A stretch of 53,852 bases of DNA from Crocinitomicaceae bacterium (lineage in GTDB: Bacteria > Bacteroidota > Bacteroidia > Flavobacteriales_D > Crocinitomicaceae). Under the pieces are notes generated by a model. The model was not told the origin of the DNA. It made no database searches and worked only from the letters and a program-made list of their open reading frames with translations. Positions 37,998-48,083 of the stretch are shown piece by piece. The stretch lies in assembly GCA_030833845.1 (NCBI GenBank), contig JAURGK010000016.1, forward strand, positions 1-53,852, given 5' to 3'. Positions within the stretch are counted from its first letter, which is position 1. Every line of letters starts with the position of its first letter. The position numbers and the translations under genes were made by a program.

Positions 37998-38918
37998 TTA
38001 GCTATTGACTTTTGAGACAATCTTCTTTTGACAAAAATTAATTCTATGACCTTCTATTTCTATGACACCCAGGCGCACACCAGCCCATCCTACCTGATGA
38101 ATCCAAACCGTAGAGCCCGATGGATTTTGTATGGCGGTTGGGGCATCCATAAAAGTGTGGGTATGGCCACCAATAATAAGGTCTATGCCGGAAACTTGCT
38201 GAGCAAGTTTGATATCGCTAGGGGTGGTGTCATCTGGGTATTTGTATCCTAAATGAGACAAACAAATGATGTAATCACATTTTTCCTGTTGTAGTGCTTC
38301 CACGGTAGTTTGAGCACTTTTAATAGGGTCCTTGATTTGTATACCCTGGTAATTGGCGGCAGGAACAAGGCCATTCAACTCAACACCTAAACCGAAAATC
38401 CCTATTTTAAAAATCCCTTTTTGAATGATGTGATAGGGCTCAATTTGTCCTGCAAGGGCAGTATTTGTGAAATCATAATTGGCATTGGTGAATTTGAAAT
38501 TTGCATATTTTTTGGCATTGAGTAAGCCGTCAATGCCAATATCAAAATCATGGTTGCCTAAGGTAACCACATCATACCCAAGTGCGCTCATGAGTTTCAT
38601 TTCCAAAACACCATGGTAGCGATTGAAATATGGGGTACCTTGAAAAAAATCTCCGGCGTCTAGTAAGAGCACATGTTCATTTTTTTGGCGATAGGATTCA
38701 ATGAGCGCTGCTCTTGCTAAAATACCCCCTTGATTTGGGTATAGATTATGATTTTCTGGATGCGGATCGATGTGTGAATGTGTATCGTTGGTATGAAGTA
38801 TGACCAAGCGCTGAACATTCTTTTTTGAAGTACTGGTGGCACTGAGCCATTTTGGTAAAAATAGCCCCACAGATGCCCAGCTTAATCTTTTGAAAAAATG
38901 TCTGCGCGTTGTACTCAT
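37998..38918 (-). CDS. 5'-nucleotidase N-terminal domain protein (metallophosphatase, Tat signal)
   Basis: Phosphatase half of a UshA-type 5'-nucleotidase that removes phosphate from nucleotides. The 306 residues begin MSTTRRHFFKRLSWASVGLF, which matches a Tat signal (TRRHFFK). Metal ligands are all present: HTNDTHSH, LLDAGDFFQG, LGNHDFD, LSHLG and GGHTHTF. The C-terminal substrate-recognition domain is missing; it is encoded separately by the preceding gene, overlapped by ATGA. The two halves should assemble in the periplasm. Last gene of the operon. Confidence 0.93.
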   Translation of the reverse strand: MSTTRRHFFKRLSWASVGLFLPKWLSATSTSKKNVQRLVILHTNDTHSHIDPHPENHNLYPNQGGILARAALIESYRQKNEHVLLLDAGDFFQGTPYFNRYHGVLEMKLMSALGYDVVTLGNHDFDIGIDGLLNAKKYANFKFTNANYDFTNTALAGQIEPYHIIQKGIFKIGIFGLGVELNGLVPAANYQGIQIKDPIKSAQTTVEALQQEKCDYIICLSHLGYKYPDDTTPSDIKLAQQVSGIDLIIGGHTHTFMDAPTAIQNPSGSTVWIHQVGWAGVRLGVIEIEGHRINFCQKKIVSKVNS

Positions 38919-39613
38919 TTGAGGTATCTTGGTTTTTGGTCTAAAATCAATTCGCCTTGATGCTTCGCTTGTTCAATAAAAATGTCGCGTAGAAGTATGT
39001 TGGTTGGAATTTGTTCGGTATTGATAAAAAAGGTCATTTGATCACCACCGGTTGCCAAAAAATCAGAAGTGAGTACCCAAATATATTCCATTTCTGGAGT
39101 TAAACCCTTGATCTGTAGATGAGTACTTGTAAATGTGCAGTTAGACATGGGCTCGCCGCCACTTTTCAATAAATAGGCCTCTATCTCTGGTATTTTCCAA
39201 ACGGGAAACTTTACCCATACCAGGCGGTTATCAAAAGGCATAAGTTTGTAAAAGTCAGATAAACTGAGGCTTCCTGCTCCAAAAGATGCACGGATCCCAC
39301 CTTTGTTTAGTAGGCAAATGACTGGTTCAGTGCGCTCGGTAGAATGTATTTGTGATTCATATACGGCATCAGCACACCAATTCATTAGGTTAGAACTTGG
39401 CCTTTGAACTATCAAATCTTGTGGTGTCTCGGCGATGACTTGATCAAACTCACGGTGCAAAGAATCTTGATAAGGGGCCAGTACGCTAGCTAGCGCTGAA
39501 GCTGCAGTATCTTGGCTTACAACTATTGACTGAACGCTCAGGGTAGGCTCTAAATAAGTAGAGCAAGCCATTAGGCTTGCTCCAATAAAAAAATACACAA
39601 TATTAAGCTTCAT
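38915..39613 (-). CDS. 5'-nucleotidase C-terminal domain lipoprotein
   Basis: Nucleotide-binding half of a UshA-type enzyme. The 232 residues have a lipobox LMA|C at Cys17. The domain spans about 60-220: NLMNWCADAVYESQI, LLNKGGIRASFGAGSLSLSDFYKLMPFDN in pieces, and TSDFLATGGDQ, all hallmarks of the family's C-terminal domain. The phosphatase half is the next gene. As a lipoprotein it is anchored by the Sec/LspA route while its partner carries a Tat signal. It overlaps the nuclease stop by 1 base. Confidence 0.9.
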   Translation of the reverse strand: MKLNIVYFFIGASLMACSTYLEPTLSVQSIVVSQDTAASALASVLAPYQDSLHREFDQVIAETPQDLIVQRPSSNLMNWCADAVYESQIHSTERTEPVICLLNKGGIRASFGAGSLSLSDFYKLMPFDNRLVWVKFPVWKIPEIEAYLLKSGGEPMSNCTFTSTHLQIKGLTPEMEYIWVLTSDFLATGGDQMTFFINTEQIPTNILLRDIFIEQAKHQGELILDQKPRYLK

Positions 39614-41886
39614 TATTCAATAACGAACTCTCGTTGTACTTGCCCGTAGGCGGTATTGACCTTTAAATAGTATACACCGGGCTTGATGTCATTAATTGGT
39701 AGAGTGAGTACAGGTAGGTTCAAATCTTGAGCTGCCCCAATTTGTCGGCCTTGGAGGTCGATGATTTGATAGGCTGTAATTTCTAGACCATTTACTTGTG
39801 CATACAAGGTTTGTGAGGCAGGTACCGGAAATACTGAGAAATTATTACTGAGTTTATCCTCCAGACCCATATCGCAATTGAGGTAAGTCATGTTCGCAAA
39901 ATTGATGTGGCAGGCAAAATAGGCTGAATCAATAAACGGATTGCGGTTTCCTTGAAGCGTATACACGTATTCATGGCGTGCAATTTCATAATTGTCAGGA
40001 GCATCATTGAAATGCCATGTCTTCAAAGACTCTTGGCTTTGATTGGCAGGTAACTCCCAGGTTAAACCAGATTGCCCATTGTAGCATGTTGCCATATAGA
40101 AAATGGATCTGGCTGCGTTGCCTTTTTGTTCAGGGCGTGGTTCATAAACCAACTGATTTCCGCTGTAACCAACGCTGCCACCCAAATAGTTGAAAACAAC
40201 ATTGCCGTCAATATCCATCAATGGTAAGTTAGAACGAGGCGTGTTGGCTTGCTGCAGGTTGGTTGGCCAAAGGTTGTGTTGATCGTTATATTCTGGTTTT
40301 TCAGGGTTATCGCATGGAAAAGTCGCCATCCAAGAATGAGAGTAGGTGTGTTCACGTGAATAGCCTAAGGCACTCCAGGCAAAAGGATCATTGAAAACTT
40401 TGCGCTCTCCTGAATACACACATTCTACATAAGACTGCCCATTGGTGGTGTCGCGCACTTCGTATTGGTGCATCATTGTGGTGAGGTAGTTGTAGTAGGA
40501 AATCGAAGTATGTGGATTGATCAGTGCACTCAAGTCTCCAAGAAAACTTGCAGATCCTGAGTTGATACCATCGTAGTAATTTCCTACTTGACTGCCAAGG
40601 GTGATAATATAAGCACTTCCAGGTATGGTCTGGTCATAATTTTGGTATCCATCTGGCCCGTTGAATGCGAAAATAGCAAATACGTATCCAGTATTGGCCA
40701 ATACATGGCGTGGCGAAAAAGAAGTGCCCGGCCCAACATAAGCCACTTTGGCATTGCCAATCACATCACCTCTTTTGTAGGTGTTTCCATCAAGTGGATA
40801 GCCTTGAATTGGCGATGTGCCATCGCCCTCTTTCCATAAAACCAAGTATTGTTCTGCACCCGATGGTGTGAATTCACCCACTAATTTATAAGGGGTAACA
40901 ACAGGCCAAGTTACGAAATTTGATTCCGGATTTATTGGTTCTGTTGCCAGATTATTGGTCCCTATGCCGTATAAATGAATGATGTATGGGTTTTCATCGT
41001 TGTCATTGTTGGCAATAGAAAGTGTTGCCAATCTAGAGCCAATACCTGTAGGTGTAAATTGTAAGGATACTACTTGGCTGCTTGTTGGCCCAACAGTAAC
41101 ATTTGCACTACAGGCATATTCAGCAGCAGATGGGCCAGAGAAACTTGCGCCACTCACAGTTAAATTTTGCACCCCATAGTTTTCAATGGTAATATCAGTT
41201 GAAGCTGCAGTTCCTACGACGTAGGTATCACCAGAAAGTACGTCCACACCGTTGATTTTCACATTGATTTCTACGGAAGGGGCCACATATGGAAAAATAT
41301 CGAGCACGCTTCTTGGAATCAATTGATAGTTGGCGTTGTATTGCCCCATTAGACCTATCACAGTTACTGGGCCTGAAGGTATAGCAGAACCATCAATATT
41401 GGTGCTGCCGTTGATGCGCACATCCAAAGTATTGGAACCGTCATTGACCTGAACAGTACTGTTTCCGGTTGCAAAATTCCCAGATTGAACAAAGGTAACA
41501 TTATCTAGGCGCACCAATTGCCCCTCTAAACTTTCACCAGCGCTTGCAATCGGGATCTGAAGTGGGGTAGGTTGAACAACTGCTGGTCCGTGATTTATAA
41601 AAGAATTTGTTGGTGATAATTCCAAAAGCCCACTGAATTCAAATAAAACACCTGTTGCTGTGATGGAATCTCCTTTTTGAACGCTCGCTAAATTCGTGCC
41701 GTAGCATGCGATTCCTGCTGTACCGTCTTGCATATAACGAATAGGGCCTAGTTCCGCTCCATTGGTAACGACACCTGTAACGGTAACTGTTTGTCCAATG
41801 CCTAAATTGCGGACTTGTTCGATGGTTTGAGCCATCAGCATCTGACTAAAAGTCAAGATACTTAGAAAAGATAAAAGTTTTCTCAT
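39613..41886 (-). CDS. Secreted modular nuclease (endonuclease I type) with T9SS sorting tail
   Basis: 757 residues. Signal peptide cut after MAQ (about 20). Residues about 21-200: OB-fold-like region found in extracellular nucleases (YMQDGTAGIACYG, LEGQLVRLDNVTF). About 210-320: choice-of-anchor D/ASPM-like beta domain (DITIENYGVQNLTV, IVSLQFTPTGIG-like). About 325-430: a beta-rich linker. About 430-640: endonuclease I (NucM/EndA) domain with SREHTYSHSWM, NDQHNLWPTNLQQANTPRSNLP, and EQKGNAARSIFYM. The last 75 residues are a Por/T9SS sorting domain (FSVFPVPASQTLY, then PGVYYLKV). Cleaves DNA and possibly RNA outside the cell. Confidence 0.92.
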   Translation of the reverse strand: MRKLLSFLSILTFSQMLMAQTIEQVRNLGIGQTVTVTGVVTNGAELGPIRYMQDGTAGIACYGTNLASVQKGDSITATGVLFEFSGLLELSPTNSFINHGPAVVQPTPLQIPIASAGESLEGQLVRLDNVTFVQSGNFATGNSTVQVNDGSNTLDVRINGSTNIDGSAIPSGPVTVIGLMGQYNANYQLIPRSVLDIFPYVAPSVEINVKINGVDVLSGDTYVVGTAASTDITIENYGVQNLTVSGASFSGPSAAEYACSANVTVGPTSSQVVSLQFTPTGIGSRLATLSIANNDNDENPYIIHLYGIGTNNLATEPINPESNFVTWPVVTPYKLVGEFTPSGAEQYLVLWKEGDGTSPIQGYPLDGNTYKRGDVIGNAKVAYVGPGTSFSPRHVLANTGYVFAIFAFNGPDGYQNYDQTIPGSAYIITLGSQVGNYYDGINSGSASFLGDLSALINPHTSISYYNYLTTMMHQYEVRDTTNGQSYVECVYSGERKVFNDPFAWSALGYSREHTYSHSWMATFPCDNPEKPEYNDQHNLWPTNLQQANTPRSNLPLMDIDGNVVFNYLGGSVGYSGNQLVYEPRPEQKGNAARSIFYMATCYNGQSGLTWELPANQSQESLKTWHFNDAPDNYEIARHEYVYTLQGNRNPFIDSAYFACHINFANMTYLNCDMGLEDKLSNNFSVFPVPASQTLYAQVNGLEITAYQIIDLQGRQIGAAQDLNLPVLTLPINDIKPGVYYLKVNTAYGQVQREFVIE

Positions 41887-41888
41887 GA

Positions 41889-44627
41889 TTAAAATTGTAT
41901 GCCTAAATTAATACTAAAGCGCAATCCCTGACCAAACATCACTGTGGCTGAACGCGCATCGAACTGATCGTAGATGCCATTGGCGTTATTGATGGCATCC
42001 GATATAAAAGAATTATTTAATAAGTTGGTAATTGCAAAACCAGCGCTAAACTGCTTGTATCGATAACCTCCAAATAGATTTAAAAGTGAGTACGACGGTA
42101 TCATCCAAGAGTCGCGGCCGCCATTGGCCCCTTGTAAAGAGAAAGGGTCGAAATTGGCAAAATAGCGATCAAAAGCTTGCCCTTGAATTTTTAAATAGCT
42201 GCGCTTGAATGGTTCGTAACGCAAAGAGGCCGACATTGCCGTCTGGGCTGCATCACCTACATGTACCCCTTTGGCATCAAATGAAAATTCGAGCGAATCA
42301 TATTGAGGGATGAAAACCGTTTTGCTTGAATTCCAAATCCAATTACCTACCGATAGCATGAACTCAAATGATAATTTTGGGCTGATTTCCCAGGCGATAT
42401 CTAATTCATTTCCTAGGTGAATGGCATCCATACCATTGATATTGACACGAATGTATTCAGTAGGGTCGTTAGGGTCTGGTACTGCAACACCGTAGGGGAA
42501 GGGTTTATTTTTCCAATTGGTGAAATAGGCGTTGTAATTGATACCGAAATTTTTATTGGTATAGTGATATCCACCCTCTGCGGCATAAATGATTTCATTT
42601 ACAATTTCGCCAAAAAAGCTATTGGTATTGTTGTCAATTACATTTGAGAATTGAGGCGTTCGGTTCAAATAGCCCAAATTGAAGTAGATATCTTGAAATT
42701 TGTTGAGCTTGTAACTGAGTCCGCCTTTGATGGTTATTCCTGGAATATACTTCCATGGTGTTTGGTAGTAAGTCAGACCTGCAGCATTGGAATTATAAGT
42801 TTGACCGTTGTATTGAATGGTATCAAGTGCTCCTATGCGCAAGATCGTGTCTCCCAAATCCAAAACTCTTCTTTGAAAGTAATCTATTCCTTTGTATCCA
42901 TTGAGTATGCTTGACATATTGATAAACCAATTCACGCGTTCACCGCTATGTTCTACCTGGCCAAATAAACCAGCATATGTTACCACTCCGTCTCGGTCAG
43001 CATTGAAGGTGTTTTTAGCTATCTTATCTCCGACACGTTTCATGGGGTCAGGGTCATTGAAATTTGCTGCACTCACAAAATAATCACCGCCTAATAAGTT
43101 GGTAATCACTTGGTAATGCCTTCCTTGGTAATAGCGAAAATCAATACCACCTGAAATAGACGTGGCCTTGTTGTATTGCAAATTGAACTGACCCAAGTAG
43201 CCCACCCAAAAGTGATTATTCATGCTTGCTAACAAAATTTGGCTTGCCTTAATTTCAGTTGTAGAATACAGTGGATCGATATTTGGGGTACCAAAAAGAG
43301 AATTCACTTGATTTTCTTGAATCATTTGGTCCCAATCGATGTTGGAATTACTGTCGCGAAGAATTGCAGACGAATTAAAAATGCTTGTACCTCCGCCTCG
43401 CCCAATAGAAACGTAGGCCAAATTAGAAATGTCTAGCTTGTCATTGACAGCCCAAAAATCTTTGAGTGTGATTTGAGGTTTGTTGTAAAAATTACGTCGT
43501 TCATTGAGGATTTCTTTTTGCCCATCAGCGTTGGTCACATAACCCCAATGTTGATTATAGCGAATTCCCATGTCGTTGAGGATAAGTGTTGAATCAAAAG
43601 ATATGCCTAGTGATTGAGAACGGCTGGCATCCCAGTATTGAATGCCTTGGTTATAGGAGCGTTGCCCGTGTTGTTGAGGCGCTGCAAATGCAGAAAGCGT
43701 GAGTAAATGCTTGTCAAGGCGTTTGGAAATTTTTGTGTATCCAAAAAAGCCTTGGGTAGGTGTGCCATCAACCCATCCTTGACCCTGCTTATAAGAGGCA
43801 GAGAAGGTAAGGCCCCAACCAGATTTAGTCATACCGGTGTTGTAGGAAAGCGAACTTCTTAAAAAGTTACCTGTGGCATATTCTTGTTTAAAGCTGCCGC
43901 CTTTTTTTGTACCCACCCCTTGAGTGATGATATTAATTGTTCCGCCAATTGAGGGCATGGCAATTTTTGTGGCACCCAAACCACGCTGAACTTGCATTTG
44001 TGAGGTAATGGCATCCAATCCAAACCAATTAGACCAATATACCGCACCATTTTCCATGTCGTTTACCGGAACGCCATCAATCATCACCCCAACATTACGT
44101 TGATCAAAGCCTCGTACATTGATACGCGCATCGCCGTCACCACCTCCTTGATTGGTGGCATATACACCGGCAGTACCGTTCAAAAGCATAGGTAGGTCTC
44201 GAGAGGCTAGTTCTTCGGTGATTTTTTTAGTATCAATTTTGGTAACGGCAACGGGCACATTCTGACCGCGCACAAGATTGCCAATAACACGGATTTCCCT
44301 CACCTCTTGGGTGGGTCTTATTTGGATATTTTGAGTGTAGAGTGCTTGTTGTAAATCAATGTTGTGCTTTACTGTGTCGGTGAGTGGCAAGGTAAACATC
44401 AATTGATATTTTCCATAGACGACATTTTCAAATGTGTATTGACCCTCATCATTGGTGGCCGTAAATTTGTAAACCTGCCCTGCAGACAATAGAGTAATCT
44501 TAGCCCCTGCTACCGGAATCTCTCCAGGAGTCATGAGTGCGACTCCTGTAATTTTGCCGCTATTTTGGCTCAATACAGTGCATGTCAGACTAATAAAGAC
44601 AAGCACATAATAAACGTCACGAAACAT
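41889..44627 (-). CDS. TonB-dependent outer-membrane receptor
   Basis: 912 residues. Signal peptide ends LSQ (about 21). Residues about 25-100: carboxypeptidase-like/CNA-B regulatory domain (GVALMTPGEIPVAGAKITL). Residues about 110-235: plug (INVRGFDQRNVGVMIDGVPVNDMENG, then GGTINIITQG). From about 240 a 22-strand barrel ends in FSINLGIQF, the terminal aromatic consensus. It abuts the LTD gene without a gap (TAAATG) and the nuclease by 2 bases. There is no SusD partner and no N-terminal SusC signature. The substrate is unknown; the neighbours suggest nucleic acid breakdown products. Confidence 0.92.
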   Translation of the reverse strand: MFRDVYYVLVFISLTCTVLSQNSGKITGVALMTPGEIPVAGAKITLLSAGQVYKFTATNDEGQYTFENVVYGKYQLMFTLPLTDTVKHNIDLQQALYTQNIQIRPTQEVREIRVIGNLVRGQNVPVAVTKIDTKKITEELASRDLPMLLNGTAGVYATNQGGGDGDARINVRGFDQRNVGVMIDGVPVNDMENGAVYWSNWFGLDAITSQMQVQRGLGATKIAMPSIGGTINIITQGVGTKKGGSFKQEYATGNFLRSSLSYNTGMTKSGWGLTFSASYKQGQGWVDGTPTQGFFGYTKISKRLDKHLLTLSAFAAPQQHGQRSYNQGIQYWDASRSQSLGISFDSTLILNDMGIRYNQHWGYVTNADGQKEILNERRNFYNKPQITLKDFWAVNDKLDISNLAYVSIGRGGGTSIFNSSAILRDSNSNIDWDQMIQENQVNSLFGTPNIDPLYSTTEIKASQILLASMNNHFWVGYLGQFNLQYNKATSISGGIDFRYYQGRHYQVITNLLGGDYFVSAANFNDPDPMKRVGDKIAKNTFNADRDGVVTYAGLFGQVEHSGERVNWFINMSSILNGYKGIDYFQRRVLDLGDTILRIGALDTIQYNGQTYNSNAAGLTYYQTPWKYIPGITIKGGLSYKLNKFQDIYFNLGYLNRTPQFSNVIDNNTNSFFGEIVNEIIYAAEGGYHYTNKNFGINYNAYFTNWKNKPFPYGVAVPDPNDPTEYIRVNINGMDAIHLGNELDIAWEISPKLSFEFMLSVGNWIWNSSKTVFIPQYDSLEFSFDAKGVHVGDAAQTAMSASLRYEPFKRSYLKIQGQAFDRYFANFDPFSLQGANGGRDSWMIPSYSLLNLFGGYRYKQFSAGFAITNLLNNSFISDAINNANGIYDQFDARSATVMFGQGLRFSINLGIQF

Positions 44628-45689
44628 TTAGCGAACGATGATTTTATGTAATGTCTGCTCACCATTCAATGAGGTGATTCGCAAGAAATAGACACCATTC
44701 AGGTTGTTTAAATCTAGTTCAGCGATGGCCTGTGCTGTAGCTACGTTCATTTCCTTGATAGGTTGACCTAAGGCAGAAATTACTTGAATTTTACGCACGT
44801 CGTTTTGTGTTTTTACATAAACGATGCCATTGCTCGGGTTCGGATAGATACTTGGTGCCATTTTAATGGCAGGCAATAAACCTATCGAATTGCAATCGCA
44901 CTCATGCACACCCAATGAAGACCAGTTGCCATCGAGTATTGGATTTCCACTTTGACCAAAAAGTGTATCGCCATTGGCATTGAGGCGCACAACCACTGGT
45001 GGAATACTGTCCCATTCTAAAAGAGGGTCAAAAAATGAAGGGTTGGTCGTTTGTCCTTTCAAGACATTAGATTTACGGATCATGCTATGGTCTTTGGTAA
45101 CGAGGACTCCCAAACCAGTACTGTAAGGAAACTGAGTAGACCATGCACCGTCATTGCCAGAAGAAGTGCCTGTTTCGTTGGCAGGATTTTCGCCGATCTT
45201 ACCAAATACATCAACAATTGCAAATCCAGTTACATTGTTGGCATTAATTACAGAAGTTGCGCTTGAAGGCAGTGTTCCTTTACCAAGTAATATGGCGTCA
45301 TTACCATTCCAATACCAGGCATTCGATACATTATAGTCAGCACAATAAAATCCGTCAGCACGCACTTGAAGAGAATCCCAAACTGGTGCTTCTTGGCCAG
45401 TACCCATGGAGTCTAATTTTTCAATTACACCAACATATACACCTTTTGGTGGAACCACGCCTGAAAGTTGAACAGAATTGGCAACGGTAGCCGTAGTGGC
45501 GCCATTGGAATAGCGGCTCACAAAATAACCCGATAAATCAATTGGATTATCGGTAGGGTTGTATATTTCAAGTGCTTTGTTGTTTGACCAACCTTCCACA
45601 TATTCAGAAATGAATAGTTCACTACAAGTGCTTTGGGCAAATGTGACAGATGTTAGAAATATAGCGATGAGAAGTAAAGATTGTTTCAT
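44628..45689 (-). CDS. Secreted lamin-tail-domain protein with T9SS sorting tail
   Basis: 353 residues. Signal peptide cut after TFAQ (about 19). Residues 20-155 form a lamin tail domain (CSELFISEYVEGWSNNKALEIYNP, then IDLSGYFVSRYSNG). The last 75 residues are a sorting domain (APSIYPNPSNGIVYVKTQ, then NGVYFLRITSLNGEQ). The LTD fold is often fused to extracellular nucleases in bacteria, here it is a stand-alone gene. First of five genes; a strong promoter precedes it. It might bind DNA or anchor the nuclease; that is inference. Confidence 0.9.
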   Translation of the reverse strand: MKQSLLLIAIFLTSVTFAQSTCSELFISEYVEGWSNNKALEIYNPTDNPIDLSGYFVSRYSNGATTATVANSVQLSGVVPPKGVYVGVIEKLDSMGTGQEAPVWDSLQVRADGFYCADYNVSNAWYWNGNDAILLGKGTLPSSATSVINANNVTGFAIVDVFGKIGENPANETGTSSGNDGAWSTQFPYSTGLGVLVTKDHSMIRKSNVLKGQTTNPSFFDPLLEWDSIPPVVVRLNANGDTLFGQSGNPILDGNWSSLGVHECDCNSIGLLPAIKMAPSIYPNPSNGIVYVKTQNDVRKIQVISALGQPIKEMNVATAQAIAELDLNNLNGVYFLRITSLNGEQTLHKIIVR

Positions 45690-45771
45690 AATGATATTAT
45701 ATTGTTGACAATCAAATTTTTAAAAAAAAATCTTGCAATTGTGTGGTTTCGGTAAATATGATGTACCTCTA

Positions 45772-45827
45772 GGTGATCACCAATTACTGATACAAATTTA
45801 AAGTATTTTGTTTGGTTTCAAAACAAA
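45772..45827 (-). promoter_or_regulatory. Promoter and operator-like repeats of the nuclease/receptor operon
   Basis: Minus strand: TTTG at 45822-45819, 18-base spacer, TAAATTTG at 45800-45793, which predicts a leader of about 100 bases before the ATG at 45689. An inverted repeat TTTGTTT-N7-AAACAAA (45807-45827) overlaps the -33 element. A perfect 10-base palindrome GGTGATCACC (45772-45781) lies about 10 bases after the predicted start. Both could be operators. A run of nine A's on the plus strand (T's in the transcript) lies in the leader. Confidence 0.55.
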
Positions 45828-45873
45828 TCAGTAGAATCCCTGATTAATTCTTTTTGAATTAATAATTAACCAA

Positions 45874-45920: not shown

Positions 45921-48083
45921 ATGATCCGATTTTCTTTCCTTCTCATCGCTATATTTTTTGCTTCAATCACAGGCGCTCAACAATTGACAGTGGAGCGCAT
46001 ATGGCGCAACTATGAATTTTCAGCCAAAGGGGCTGGAGCCTATGTGTTGCTCAATGATGGCCAGCATTATGTAGAATGGTCGGAGGAAGGTCACCTCGTT
46101 AAAGGTGATCTTACCAATCCTCAAGCTCCCATCGAAATGCTCATAGATAAAGCAAAATTGATATACAATGACAAAGCTATCAATGTTACGGGGTTTCAAT
46201 TCAATGCATCTGAACAAAAAATCCTTTTGATTACTGCTCCTCAATCGATTTATCGCAGAAGCTTTGAGGCATTTTATTTCCTATTTGATTTGCAAACCAA
46301 TCAATTGGAAGCTCTTGATGCGGATCACGCACCACAAACACTAGCAGAGTATTCTCCCGACGGCAAACAGGTTTCCTTTATTCACGGCAATGATCTTTTT
46401 GTTAAAGACCTCACAACAGGAAAAGTAACTAAACTCACAACCGATGGAAAACGAAATAAAATAATTAACGGAACCACAGACTGGGTTTACGAAGAGGAGT
46501 TTGCAATAACCAAGGCCTATTGTTGGTCTCCGGATAGCAAATATATTGCCTATTTAAAATTTGATGAGCGCGAGGTCCCGGAATTTCAAATGGCCATGTA
46601 TGGCCAGCTGTATCCAGAGCAATATAAATATAAGTATCCAAAAGCTGGCGAGGTGAATTCTAAAGTAAGCTTACACCTCGTAGAGCCAAGAAAAAATAAA
46701 TCGATTCAAATTTCTCTTGATCATTACGAGTATATTCCTCGCTTGAATTGGTCTGCTAAGGCAAACCATTTGGTGGTTCAGACCATGAATCGTCATCAAA
46801 ACGAGCTCAATTATTGGTTGGTTGATGCCAACCAAAAACAAATTCAAACCAAAAAGTTTTTTACGGAAAAGTCCTCGACCTACATAGAGGTTGACAACAA
46901 TCTATTGATCCTACAAGACGGCAAATCGATTTTGAGGACCAGTGAATTAAGTGGTGCAAACCATATTTATAAACTTGGTTTTGATGGTTCCTCTATTGCA
47001 ATTACCAGTGGAGCATGGGATGTTATTGAATTCCTCGGCATAGACGAGTCAAGCCAAACCATTTTTTATTCAAGTGCAGAACCTGGGGCCATTTACAAAT
47101 CTGTATACAGCATTCAACTCGATGGTACACAAAAGAAAAACTTGACCCCAACACTCGGATATAACAATGCCGAATTTTTAAACGGCATGAAATATTTCTT
47201 GCACACTTATTCAAATGCCAATACACCTCCTCTTATTAAATTATGTAAAGCCAATGGAGAGGTAGTAGAGGTCTTAGAAGATAATGATAAACTCCGCGCT
47301 AAAATGCAGCTAGAAAAACTGAGCCAAAAACAGTTTTTTAATATTAAAACTTCACAAACAGACCTCAACGCCTCACTTATCTTACCTCAAAATTACGATC
47401 CAAGTAAAAAATATCCTGTTTTCGTGCATGTATACGGAGGCCCTGGGCACAATGAGGTGCTAGATTCTTGGGATGGCAATGACTACTTTTTCCATAATCT
47501 CCTTGCACAAGACGGTTACATGGTGTTGAGTATTGACCCGCGTGGCACTCAATTTCGTGGCGAAGCTTTTAAAAAATCAACTTATCTCCAACTTGGAAAA
47601 CTTGAAATTCAAGATATCCTTGAAGCGACTCGGGTTTTTGCCGAGCGTCCAGATGTTGATAAAGCCAGGTTGGGTATTATGGGCTGGAGTTATGGTGGTT
47701 TTATGTCCTCATTAGCCATGACCAAGGGTGAAGGATTATTTAAAATGGGTATTGCAGTGGCGCCTGTTACCAACTGGCGCTATTACGACAATATCTACAC
47801 AGAAAGGTTTATGCAAACACCTGCTGAAAATCCTAAAGGATATGACGATAATTCACCAATTAACTTTGTACAAGGACTACAAGGTAAATTCTTTTTAATT
47901 CATGGTGCCGCTGACGATAATGTTCATTACCAAAACTCCATGGAGATGATCAGTGCTTTGGTCAAGGCCAATAAGCAATTCGATTTATTTATCTATCCAA
48001 ATAAAAATCATGGCATTTATGGGGGAAATACCCGTAATCACCTTTTCAACATGATTCATAATTACATTCTAGAAGAACTTTAA
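45921..48083 (+). CDS. Dipeptidyl peptidase IV (S9 family)
   Basis: Removes Xaa-Pro dipeptides in the periplasm or outer surface. 720 residues with a signal peptide cut after GAQ (about 20). The N-terminal propeller carries the double-Glu motif DWVYEEEF (Glu191-Glu192) that binds the substrate N-terminus. The alpha/beta-hydrolase domain has nucleophile Ser590 (GWSYGGFM), Asp665 (HGAADDNVH) and His697 (NKNHGIYG). All elements complete. Single-gene unit. Confidence 0.95.
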   Translation: MIRFSFLLIAIFFASITGAQQLTVERIWRNYEFSAKGAGAYVLLNDGQHYVEWSEEGHLVKGDLTNPQAPIEMLIDKAKLIYNDKAINVTGFQFNASEQKILLITAPQSIYRRSFEAFYFLFDLQTNQLEALDADHAPQTLAEYSPDGKQVSFIHGNDLFVKDLTTGKVTKLTTDGKRNKIINGTTDWVYEEEFAITKAYCWSPDSKYIAYLKFDEREVPEFQMAMYGQLYPEQYKYKYPKAGEVNSKVSLHLVEPRKNKSIQISLDHYEYIPRLNWSAKANHLVVQTMNRHQNELNYWLVDANQKQIQTKKFFTEKSSTYIEVDNNLLILQDGKSILRTSELSGANHIYKLGFDGSSIAITSGAWDVIEFLGIDESSQTIFYSSAEPGAIYKSVYSIQLDGTQKKNLTPTLGYNNAEFLNGMKYFLHTYSNANTPPLIKLCKANGEVVEVLEDNDKLRAKMQLEKLSQKQFFNIKTSQTDLNASLILPQNYDPSKKYPVFVHVYGGPGHNEVLDSWDGNDYFFHNLLAQDGYMVLSIDPRGTQFRGEAFKKSTYLQLGKLEIQDILEATRVFAERPDVDKARLGIMGWSYGGFMSSLAMTKGEGLFKMGIAVAPVTNWRYYDNIYTERFMQTPAENPKGYDDNSPINFVQGLQGKFFLIHGAADDNVHYQNSMEMISALVKANKQFDLFIYPNKNHGIYGGNTRNHLFNMIHNYILEEL

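Follow-up and report, generated by a model that had tools for sequence, protein, structure and literature searches.

A candidate cassette for nucleic-acid utilisation with a TonB-dependent receptor in Crocinitomicaceae and other bacterial lineages

Background

Does a gene cluster that joins a secreted nuclease, a TonB-dependent receptor and a 5'-nucleotidase allow its host to live on nucleic acid, and which of its genes form a unit? The question is raised by five minus-strand genes in a 53,852-nucleotide stretch of DNA from a Crocinitomicaceae bacterium (the window), which a preliminary description had read as a series of steps for obtaining nucleoside or phosphate from nucleic acid. By comparing the locus across related genomes, we arrive at a rather probable reading: a co-transcribed cassette for cutting nucleic acid at the cell surface, importing it via a dedicated TonB-dependent receptor and removing phosphate in the periplasm. 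The core of the cassette is formed by genes 1-3, which encode a lamin-tail-domain (LTD) protein, the TonB-dependent receptor and a secreted nuclease.

Results and discussion

Composition of the cluster

The cluster is a run of five open reading frames (ORFs) from 45689 down to 37998, with intergenic gaps of 0, 2, -1 and -4 bases; the ORF coordinates reproduce exactly the run and spacing described earlier.

44628..45689, minus strand: LTD protein of 353 amino acids (aa) with a signal peptide, a lamin-tail Ig-like domain and a type IX secretion system (T9SS) type A sorting tail
41889..44627, minus strand: TonB-dependent receptor, 912 aa, Plug domain (1.9e-14), predicted importer of nucleic-acid fragments
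39613..41886, minus strand: T9SS-tailed endonuclease I (EndoI), 757 aa, with a DUF5689 region, Ig-like, fn3-like and Endonuclease_1 domains and the T9SS tail
38915..39613, minus strand: C-terminal (substrate-binding) half of a 5'-nucleotidase, 232 aa, predicted lipoprotein, 5_nucleotid_C (7.6e-13)
37998..38918, minus strand: metallophosphatase (catalytic) half of the 5'-nucleotidase, 306 aa, Metallophos (1.7e-17), twin-arginine-like signal

The domains earlier assigned to all five products were likewise recovered with Pfam, which gave LTD and Por_Secre_tail for the first gene, Plug for the receptor (with CarboxypepD_reg slightly under the cut-off), and DUF5689, Endonuclease_1 and Por_Secre_tail for the nuclease. 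The remark that the locus has no SusD partner also holds: no SusD family is among the Pfam matches of the five proteins at an E-value of 0.001, and the pairing of a SusC-type receptor with an adjacent SusD-type lipoprotein was not found. Both marks of T9SS cargo are present for the LTD protein and EndoI, namely a type A sorting domain (43.9 and 29.5 bits with TIGR04183, cut-off 23) and a T9SS in the genome, as indicated by its SprA gene (2343 bits).

The host genome (2.14 Mb, 44 contigs, 94.7% complete) contains a single Endonuclease_1 match and four matches to PF03372, three of them above the cut-off and all on contigs other than that of the cluster. The LTD protein has no match to an EEP domain, so that the one-chain combination of LTD, OB and EEP known from ExeM and Xds is not found in it, and the ExeM model aligns to its LTD part only (54 bits versus a cut-off of 1300). 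This protein is likely a surface-anchored partner of the receptor.

Conservation of the LTD-receptor-nuclease triad

The gene order of the cluster is not due to chance, because the same order recurs across relatives in the taxonomic order. A receptor match was present in 152 genomes of the order, of which 97 were picked by eye; best matches in the other 55 were mostly weak or cut. We fetched 100 loci, and 98 of them contain the receptor. In 96 of these 98 the receptor gene is immediately preceded by the LTD gene in the same orientation; the two exceptions are one contig end and one interrupted receptor. The gene after the receptor encodes EndoI in 64 loci and a phospholipase D (PLD)-type protein in 30, and is absent or cut off in 4. 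A nuclease thus comes next in 94 of the 98 loci, and the neighbourhood comparison suggested in the preliminary description gives no sign that receptor homologues mostly adjoin unrelated uptake genes.

A second count, made from the LTD gene in 199 genomes of the order, is independent of the choice of loci by eye and measures a receptor-length gap, not the receptor itself. It took EndoI rows of at least 190 bits (82), stand-alone LTD rows (130) and PLD-type rows (76, with three more fragments excluded); its EndoI and stand-alone LTD figures are those among the matches listed. The 130 listed LTD homologues occur in 129 of the 199 genomes, and 119 of them have a nuclease 2.5-3.9 kb downstream on the same strand, leaving room for one receptor; this nuclease is EndoI in 66 cases and PLD-type (HKD) in 53. 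Eight of the 11 listed LTD loci without a nuclease reach a contig end, seven lying on the minus strand less than 4 kb from contig base 1 and one (G119) stopping with its contig; the rest are G150, G128 and G004.

The same arrangement is found in 80 loci from named genomes, which were selected by best score and are thus biased to close relatives. These loci (L131-L210) share genomes with the order loci (L032-L130), and the two counts are not summed. The LTD gene is upstream of the receptor in 73 and fused to it in one, with a contig end in six; the next gene encodes EndoI in 46 and a PLD-type protein in 22, while in the other 12 it is absent, cut short or unlabelled, and L206 has a different gene. 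The named set spans records of Crocinitomicaceae (Fluviicola, Brumimicrobium), Saprospiraceae, Bacteroidales and Prolixibacteraceae. Since the best named relative of the window receptor is from a Crocinitomicaceae metagenome-assembled genome (89% identity), the family coded f1 in our comparison is most likely Crocinitomicaceae.

Outside this receptor family the neighbourhood changes. A phylum-wide search with the receptor profile at 1e-60 matched 106 of 395 genomes; 60 loci were read, three genomes (G000, G008, G009) were already represented among the family members, and 43 were not among the loci read. With profile A1, full-length family members of the order score at least 1088, whereas no score above 881 occurs among the 60 less related receptors. 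In none of these 60 is the receptor immediately preceded by an LTD gene of this family. EndoI lies two genes downstream in two, and two others precede a protein, scanned in one case and assigned by similarity in the other, in which LTD occurs with plastocyanin and DUF5689 domains. A PF01663-type gene (type I phosphodiesterase/nucleotide pyrophosphatase) directly follows 10 of the 60 (one scanned, the rest by similarity), and the commonest following gene, in 25, encodes a short protein without a Pfam match. A type I phosphodiesterase gene was seen after the receptor, directly or past a second receptor gene, in L251, L253, L255-L257, L259, L263, L265-L268 and L270, and in some loci of this group M16 peptidase-like genes come next. 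The host genome has a second receptor (L271), with neither an LTD gene nor a nuclease gene beside it.

Exchange of the nuclease

The Endonuclease_1 domain of the window nuclease matches PF04231 with 78.9 bits (cut-off 25) and contains what we take to be the catalytic His and Glu and the metal-binding Asn of Vvn; R-E-H and N548 are invariant. The predicted model of this protein matches DNA-bound Vvn, its N-terminus resembles nucleic-acid-binding domains, and the DUF5689 region forms two OB-like domains in the model.

In other lineages the third gene encodes a protein with two PLD-like domains in place of EndoI. All eight PLD proteins scanned have a T9SS tail, most have an fn3-like region, and five match DUF5689 at an E-value of 0.001; in 13 of 13 proteins neither HKD motif varies. 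Sequence comparison places them nearest to solved structures titled mitochondrial cardiolipin hydrolase (presumably Zucchini/PLD6) and to the endonuclease 1byr. On a receptor tree of 177 rows (FastTree, with long-branch warnings) the EndoI/PLD state switches at least 8 times, and the sister pairs L184/L191 and L193/L207, each with support 100, differ in nuclease type. Tandem EndoI and PLD-type genes occur in L203 and L208, and L202 has three genes for nucleases, of which the final one additionally encodes an Exo_endo_phos domain. Because endonuclease I is swapped for a PLD-type protein beside the same receptor, nucleic acid is the most economical common substrate of the cassette. This alternation of nuclease-type folds of different origin beside one receptor family is the strongest argument on substrate.

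The split 5'-nucleotidase

The last two genes hold the two domains of a UshA-type enzyme, Metallophos and 5_nucleotid_C, on two adjacent ORFs that overlap by four bases and stand in reverse order, the C-terminal half preceding the N-terminal half. A single chain with both domains was not found in the window, and the pairs of its relatives also consist of two ORFs. For the C-terminal half, alignments were obtained with the C-terminal parts of 5'-nucleotidase 2z1a (3.8e-6) and UshA (0.002-0.004), and the metallophosphatase half aligns to 2z1a (6.2e-38). Reading the sequence, we find a lipobox (LMAC) in the former and a twin-arginine-like signal (RRHFFK) in the latter; with such differing signals, the halves would need to meet in the periplasm.

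EndoI, the C-terminal half and the metallophosphatase are consecutive in 46 of the 98 order loci, all of them in family f1. A metallophosphatase match anywhere in the genome was found for 58 of 65 EndoI-type genomes versus 3 of 53 PLD-type genomes, a difference that follows family. The split nucleotidase is an addition to the cassette made by family f1, the only family in which it accompanies the cluster. The f1 genomes G019 and G103 have no receptor or EndoI matches, yet at L284 and L287 they retain the C-terminal half with its hairpin (see below), which suggests that the triad was lost in these two genomes.

A conserved hairpin in the nucleotidase gene

The gene for the C-terminal half contains one further element:

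39560..39583, minus strand: conserved RNA hairpin of 10 pairs within the lipobox codons

The encoded peptide, GAS/GAG-L-x-ACS, is nearly palindromic in codons, and for this reason a control with redrawn codons was needed. Across 32 different stretches the stem forms 294 of 320 pairs; redrawing the codons with the peptides unchanged gives 204 +/- 7 (2000 draws, largest value 226). The lipobox Cys codon is TGC in 49 of 51 cases, as against 33 of 84 at other positions of these genes (Fisher p 2.7e-12). In an alignment of 43 sequences 93.5% of cells pair (shuffled, 89.4%). Double changes occupy 21 cells, a count reached in 0 of 500 shuffles and inflated by related sequences; they are mostly A-U to G-C at one pair, and only 3 pairs have them, which 104 of 500 shuffles match. 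Nine or ten pairs are present in 70 of 80 C-terminal-half copies from receptor loci (two overlapping sets). Outside receptor loci the hairpin is found in two of 19 copies, each from genus g2 (family f1); of the 17 copies without it, two lack a recognised lipobox. These patterns point to selection on the nucleic acid of this stretch, where the hairpin may affect expression ratio, pausing or stability.

Transcription and neighbouring genes

The five genes are likely co-transcribed, and a putative start lies ahead of the first:

45793..45822, minus strand: putative Bacteroidota-type promoter TTTG-N18-TAAATTTG, 111 bases ahead of the LTD start codon

This assignment uses what we take to be the Bacteroidota promoter consensus. 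Either TAAATTTG or TAATTTTG occurs at a roughly equal position upstream of LTD in the four nearest relatives, and the complete two-box pattern is seen in the window and in one of these four. Further, a block of the upstream region (45690-45830, minus strand) that contains CTGATTGTCAG and the motif GAAACC is kept in the four nearest relatives and mostly present in the window.

On the other side of the cluster the same-strand run goes on, after 25 bases, with gltX (37972-36422), which was not seen beside the cluster in the relatives' loci compared; the gene beyond it resembles folB by eye. A DPPIV-type peptidase gene (45921-48083, plus strand) is divergent from the LTD gene, as in most of the family f1 loci listed, and the two may therefore share a regulatory region.

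Proposed function and alternative explanations

The proposed route has five steps. Given the sorting tails and SprA, both the LTD protein and the nuclease would reach the surface through the T9SS. There, as suggested by the domain make-up, the motifs and the modelled folds, endonuclease I (in other lineages the PLD-type nuclease) would cleave nucleic acid held by the OB-like domains at the N-terminus. As the gene order suggests, the LTD protein may dock substrate or nuclease at the receptor in the place of SusD, and the receptor would import oligonucleotides or nucleotides using TonB energy. In family f1, homology suggests that the lipoprotein and metallophosphatase halves could assemble into a UshA-like 5'-nucleotidase that frees phosphate and nucleosides. 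On this inference, oligonucleotides or nucleotides would be the cargo of the receptor, and DNA would sustain growth. With slight preference, we also hold the wider view that the receptor family is dedicated to nucleic acid and makes the cassette a DNA counterpart of the polysaccharide utilisation locus, with LTD for SusD and a swappable nuclease (endonuclease I, PLD-type or EEP) beside a receptor that is kept.

Several observations weigh against the foraging cassette. The earlier claim that all five genes act in series on nucleic acid stands in part: the receptor-nuclease link is borne out by neighbourhood and nuclease swap, but the five are not one fixed unit, as the nucleotidase pair is consecutive with EndoI in fewer than half of the order loci, follows none of the 30 PLD genes there and is absent from the loci of other lineages. 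No metallophosphatase match was found anywhere in 50 of 53 PLD-type genomes. Nucleases of both types also occur apart from the cassette: among the matches listed for the order, 16 of 82 EndoI-type and 23 of 76 PLD-type ones have no listed LTD gene upstream, which reflects contig breaks or separate copies. Simple DNA binding is not suggested by the net charge of the LTD domain (-13 in the window, median -15 over 166), the OB region (-7) or the EndoI domain (-10). Many EndoI proteins lack the DUF5689 region. In more than one third of those compared, alignment to the window protein begins only at about residue 130-200, and two scanned ones with the shorter N-terminus gave no DUF5689 match. Most solved PLD relatives are titled cardiolipin hydrolase, and PLD-type proteins can be phospholipases. 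Possible action of PLD-type enzymes on lipids and the acidity of the LTD protein are among the strongest doubts. The concentrative nucleoside transporter PF07662 has no match in the 94.7% complete genome, and our literature search found no experiment on any cassette member. According to passages of PMC6085458, cells do not need the ExeM LTD to degrade DNA, although in vitro activity drops without it, and EndA1 and EndA2 of F. johnsoniae are listed as orphan genes in the part of PMC8115612 consulted.

A first, unlikely alternative is that the cell uses the nucleases to remodel biofilm or matrix or to remove foreign DNA, and that the receptor, merely co-regulated, imports another cargo such as a metal or siderophore. 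Such roles are described for extracellular nucleases elsewhere (passages of PMC6085458), and the receptor's best NCBIfam matches are B12, haemoglobin/transferrin and siderophore receptors, though at only 28-40 bits versus cut-offs of 324-925. However, a bystander link fails to explain why unrelated nuclease folds interchange beside a constant receptor and LTD protein, and the nucleotide pyrophosphatase-type gene after 10 of the 60 less related receptors also speaks against it.

That last observation speaks for another explanation, general phosphate-ester uptake, in which endonuclease I and the PLD-type protein would be two phosphodiesterases feeding an organophosphate receptor. The PLD superfamily includes phospholipases, in line with the cardiolipin hydrolase titles. 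We regard this explanation as quite unlikely: endonuclease I acts on nucleic acid, the endonuclease 1byr is among the solved PLD relatives, and the models resemble nucleic-acid-binding domains. It would have a precedent in the phosphate utilisation systems (PUS) of F. johnsoniae, which include TonB-dependent transporters (passages of PMC8115612).

An aid to DNA uptake in natural transformation is very improbable, as nutrition better fits a nuclease with a nucleotidase, we know of no TonB receptor in transformation machines, and the ComEC-type gene of the host genome, which could speak for such a role, lies outside this cluster and is common (10 of 14 control genomes). The pneumococcal nuclease EndA, a case in favour of this role, presumably belongs to a family other than endonuclease I. 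A nuclease is needed for transformation in pneumococcus, where it is EndA (passages of PMC3729463).

Comparison with known systems

The foraging cassette most resembles the DNA-foraging sets EndA/ExeM/UshA of Shewanella and Dns/Xds/UshA of Vibrio, with which it shares endonuclease I, LTD and OB modules and a UshA-type nucleotidase, and which serve to gain phosphorus from DNA (passages of PMC6085458 and PMC8475336); UshA is key to growth on DNA in several bacteria (passages of PMC8475336). In contrast to the cassette, these sets have no dedicated TonB receptor named in those passages; their nucleotidase is one chain where here there are two, ExeM has its LTD fused to the nuclease whereas here LTD is a separate gene, and the nuclease here has a T9SS tail. 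Relative to Vvn, Dns and EndA, the window nuclease is alike in its modelled catalytic fold and invariant residues and differs in being multi-domain and T9SS-tailed with an added OB-like N-terminus.

With the PUS of F. johnsoniae the cassette shares an outer-membrane TonB transporter encoded together with phosphodiesterases for organic phosphorus, whereas PUSI has a SusCD-type pair and periplasmic phosphodiesterases. Fjoh_4721 and Fjoh_4723 (EndA1/EndA2, with fn3, LTD and Endonuclease_1 domains) rise under phosphate depletion (4.66 and 4.13 in the first column of expression values, the heading of which lies outside the excerpt); in that excerpt they are not listed with a transporter, and no LTD-receptor-nuclease triad is described (PMC8115612, in part). 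Polysaccharide loci of the SusCD type likewise encode a surface enzyme, a TonB receptor and a periplasmic enzyme together; here no SusD domain was found, an LTD protein stands upstream of the receptor, and a nuclease replaces the glycosidase.

Conclusions

Bacteroidota are described as probably important in the breakdown of extracellular DNA in sediments (passages of PMC8289736). The terms 'TonB' and 'outer membrane' are absent from the main text of that paper, and the route by which DNA fragments cross is therefore left open there. The nuclease-linked receptor family offers a direct, deletable candidate for this crossing, and the LTD-receptor-nuclease set provides marker genes for DNA foraging in metagenomes. 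If the proposed function is true, nucleic acid would join the substrates of TonB-dependent transport.

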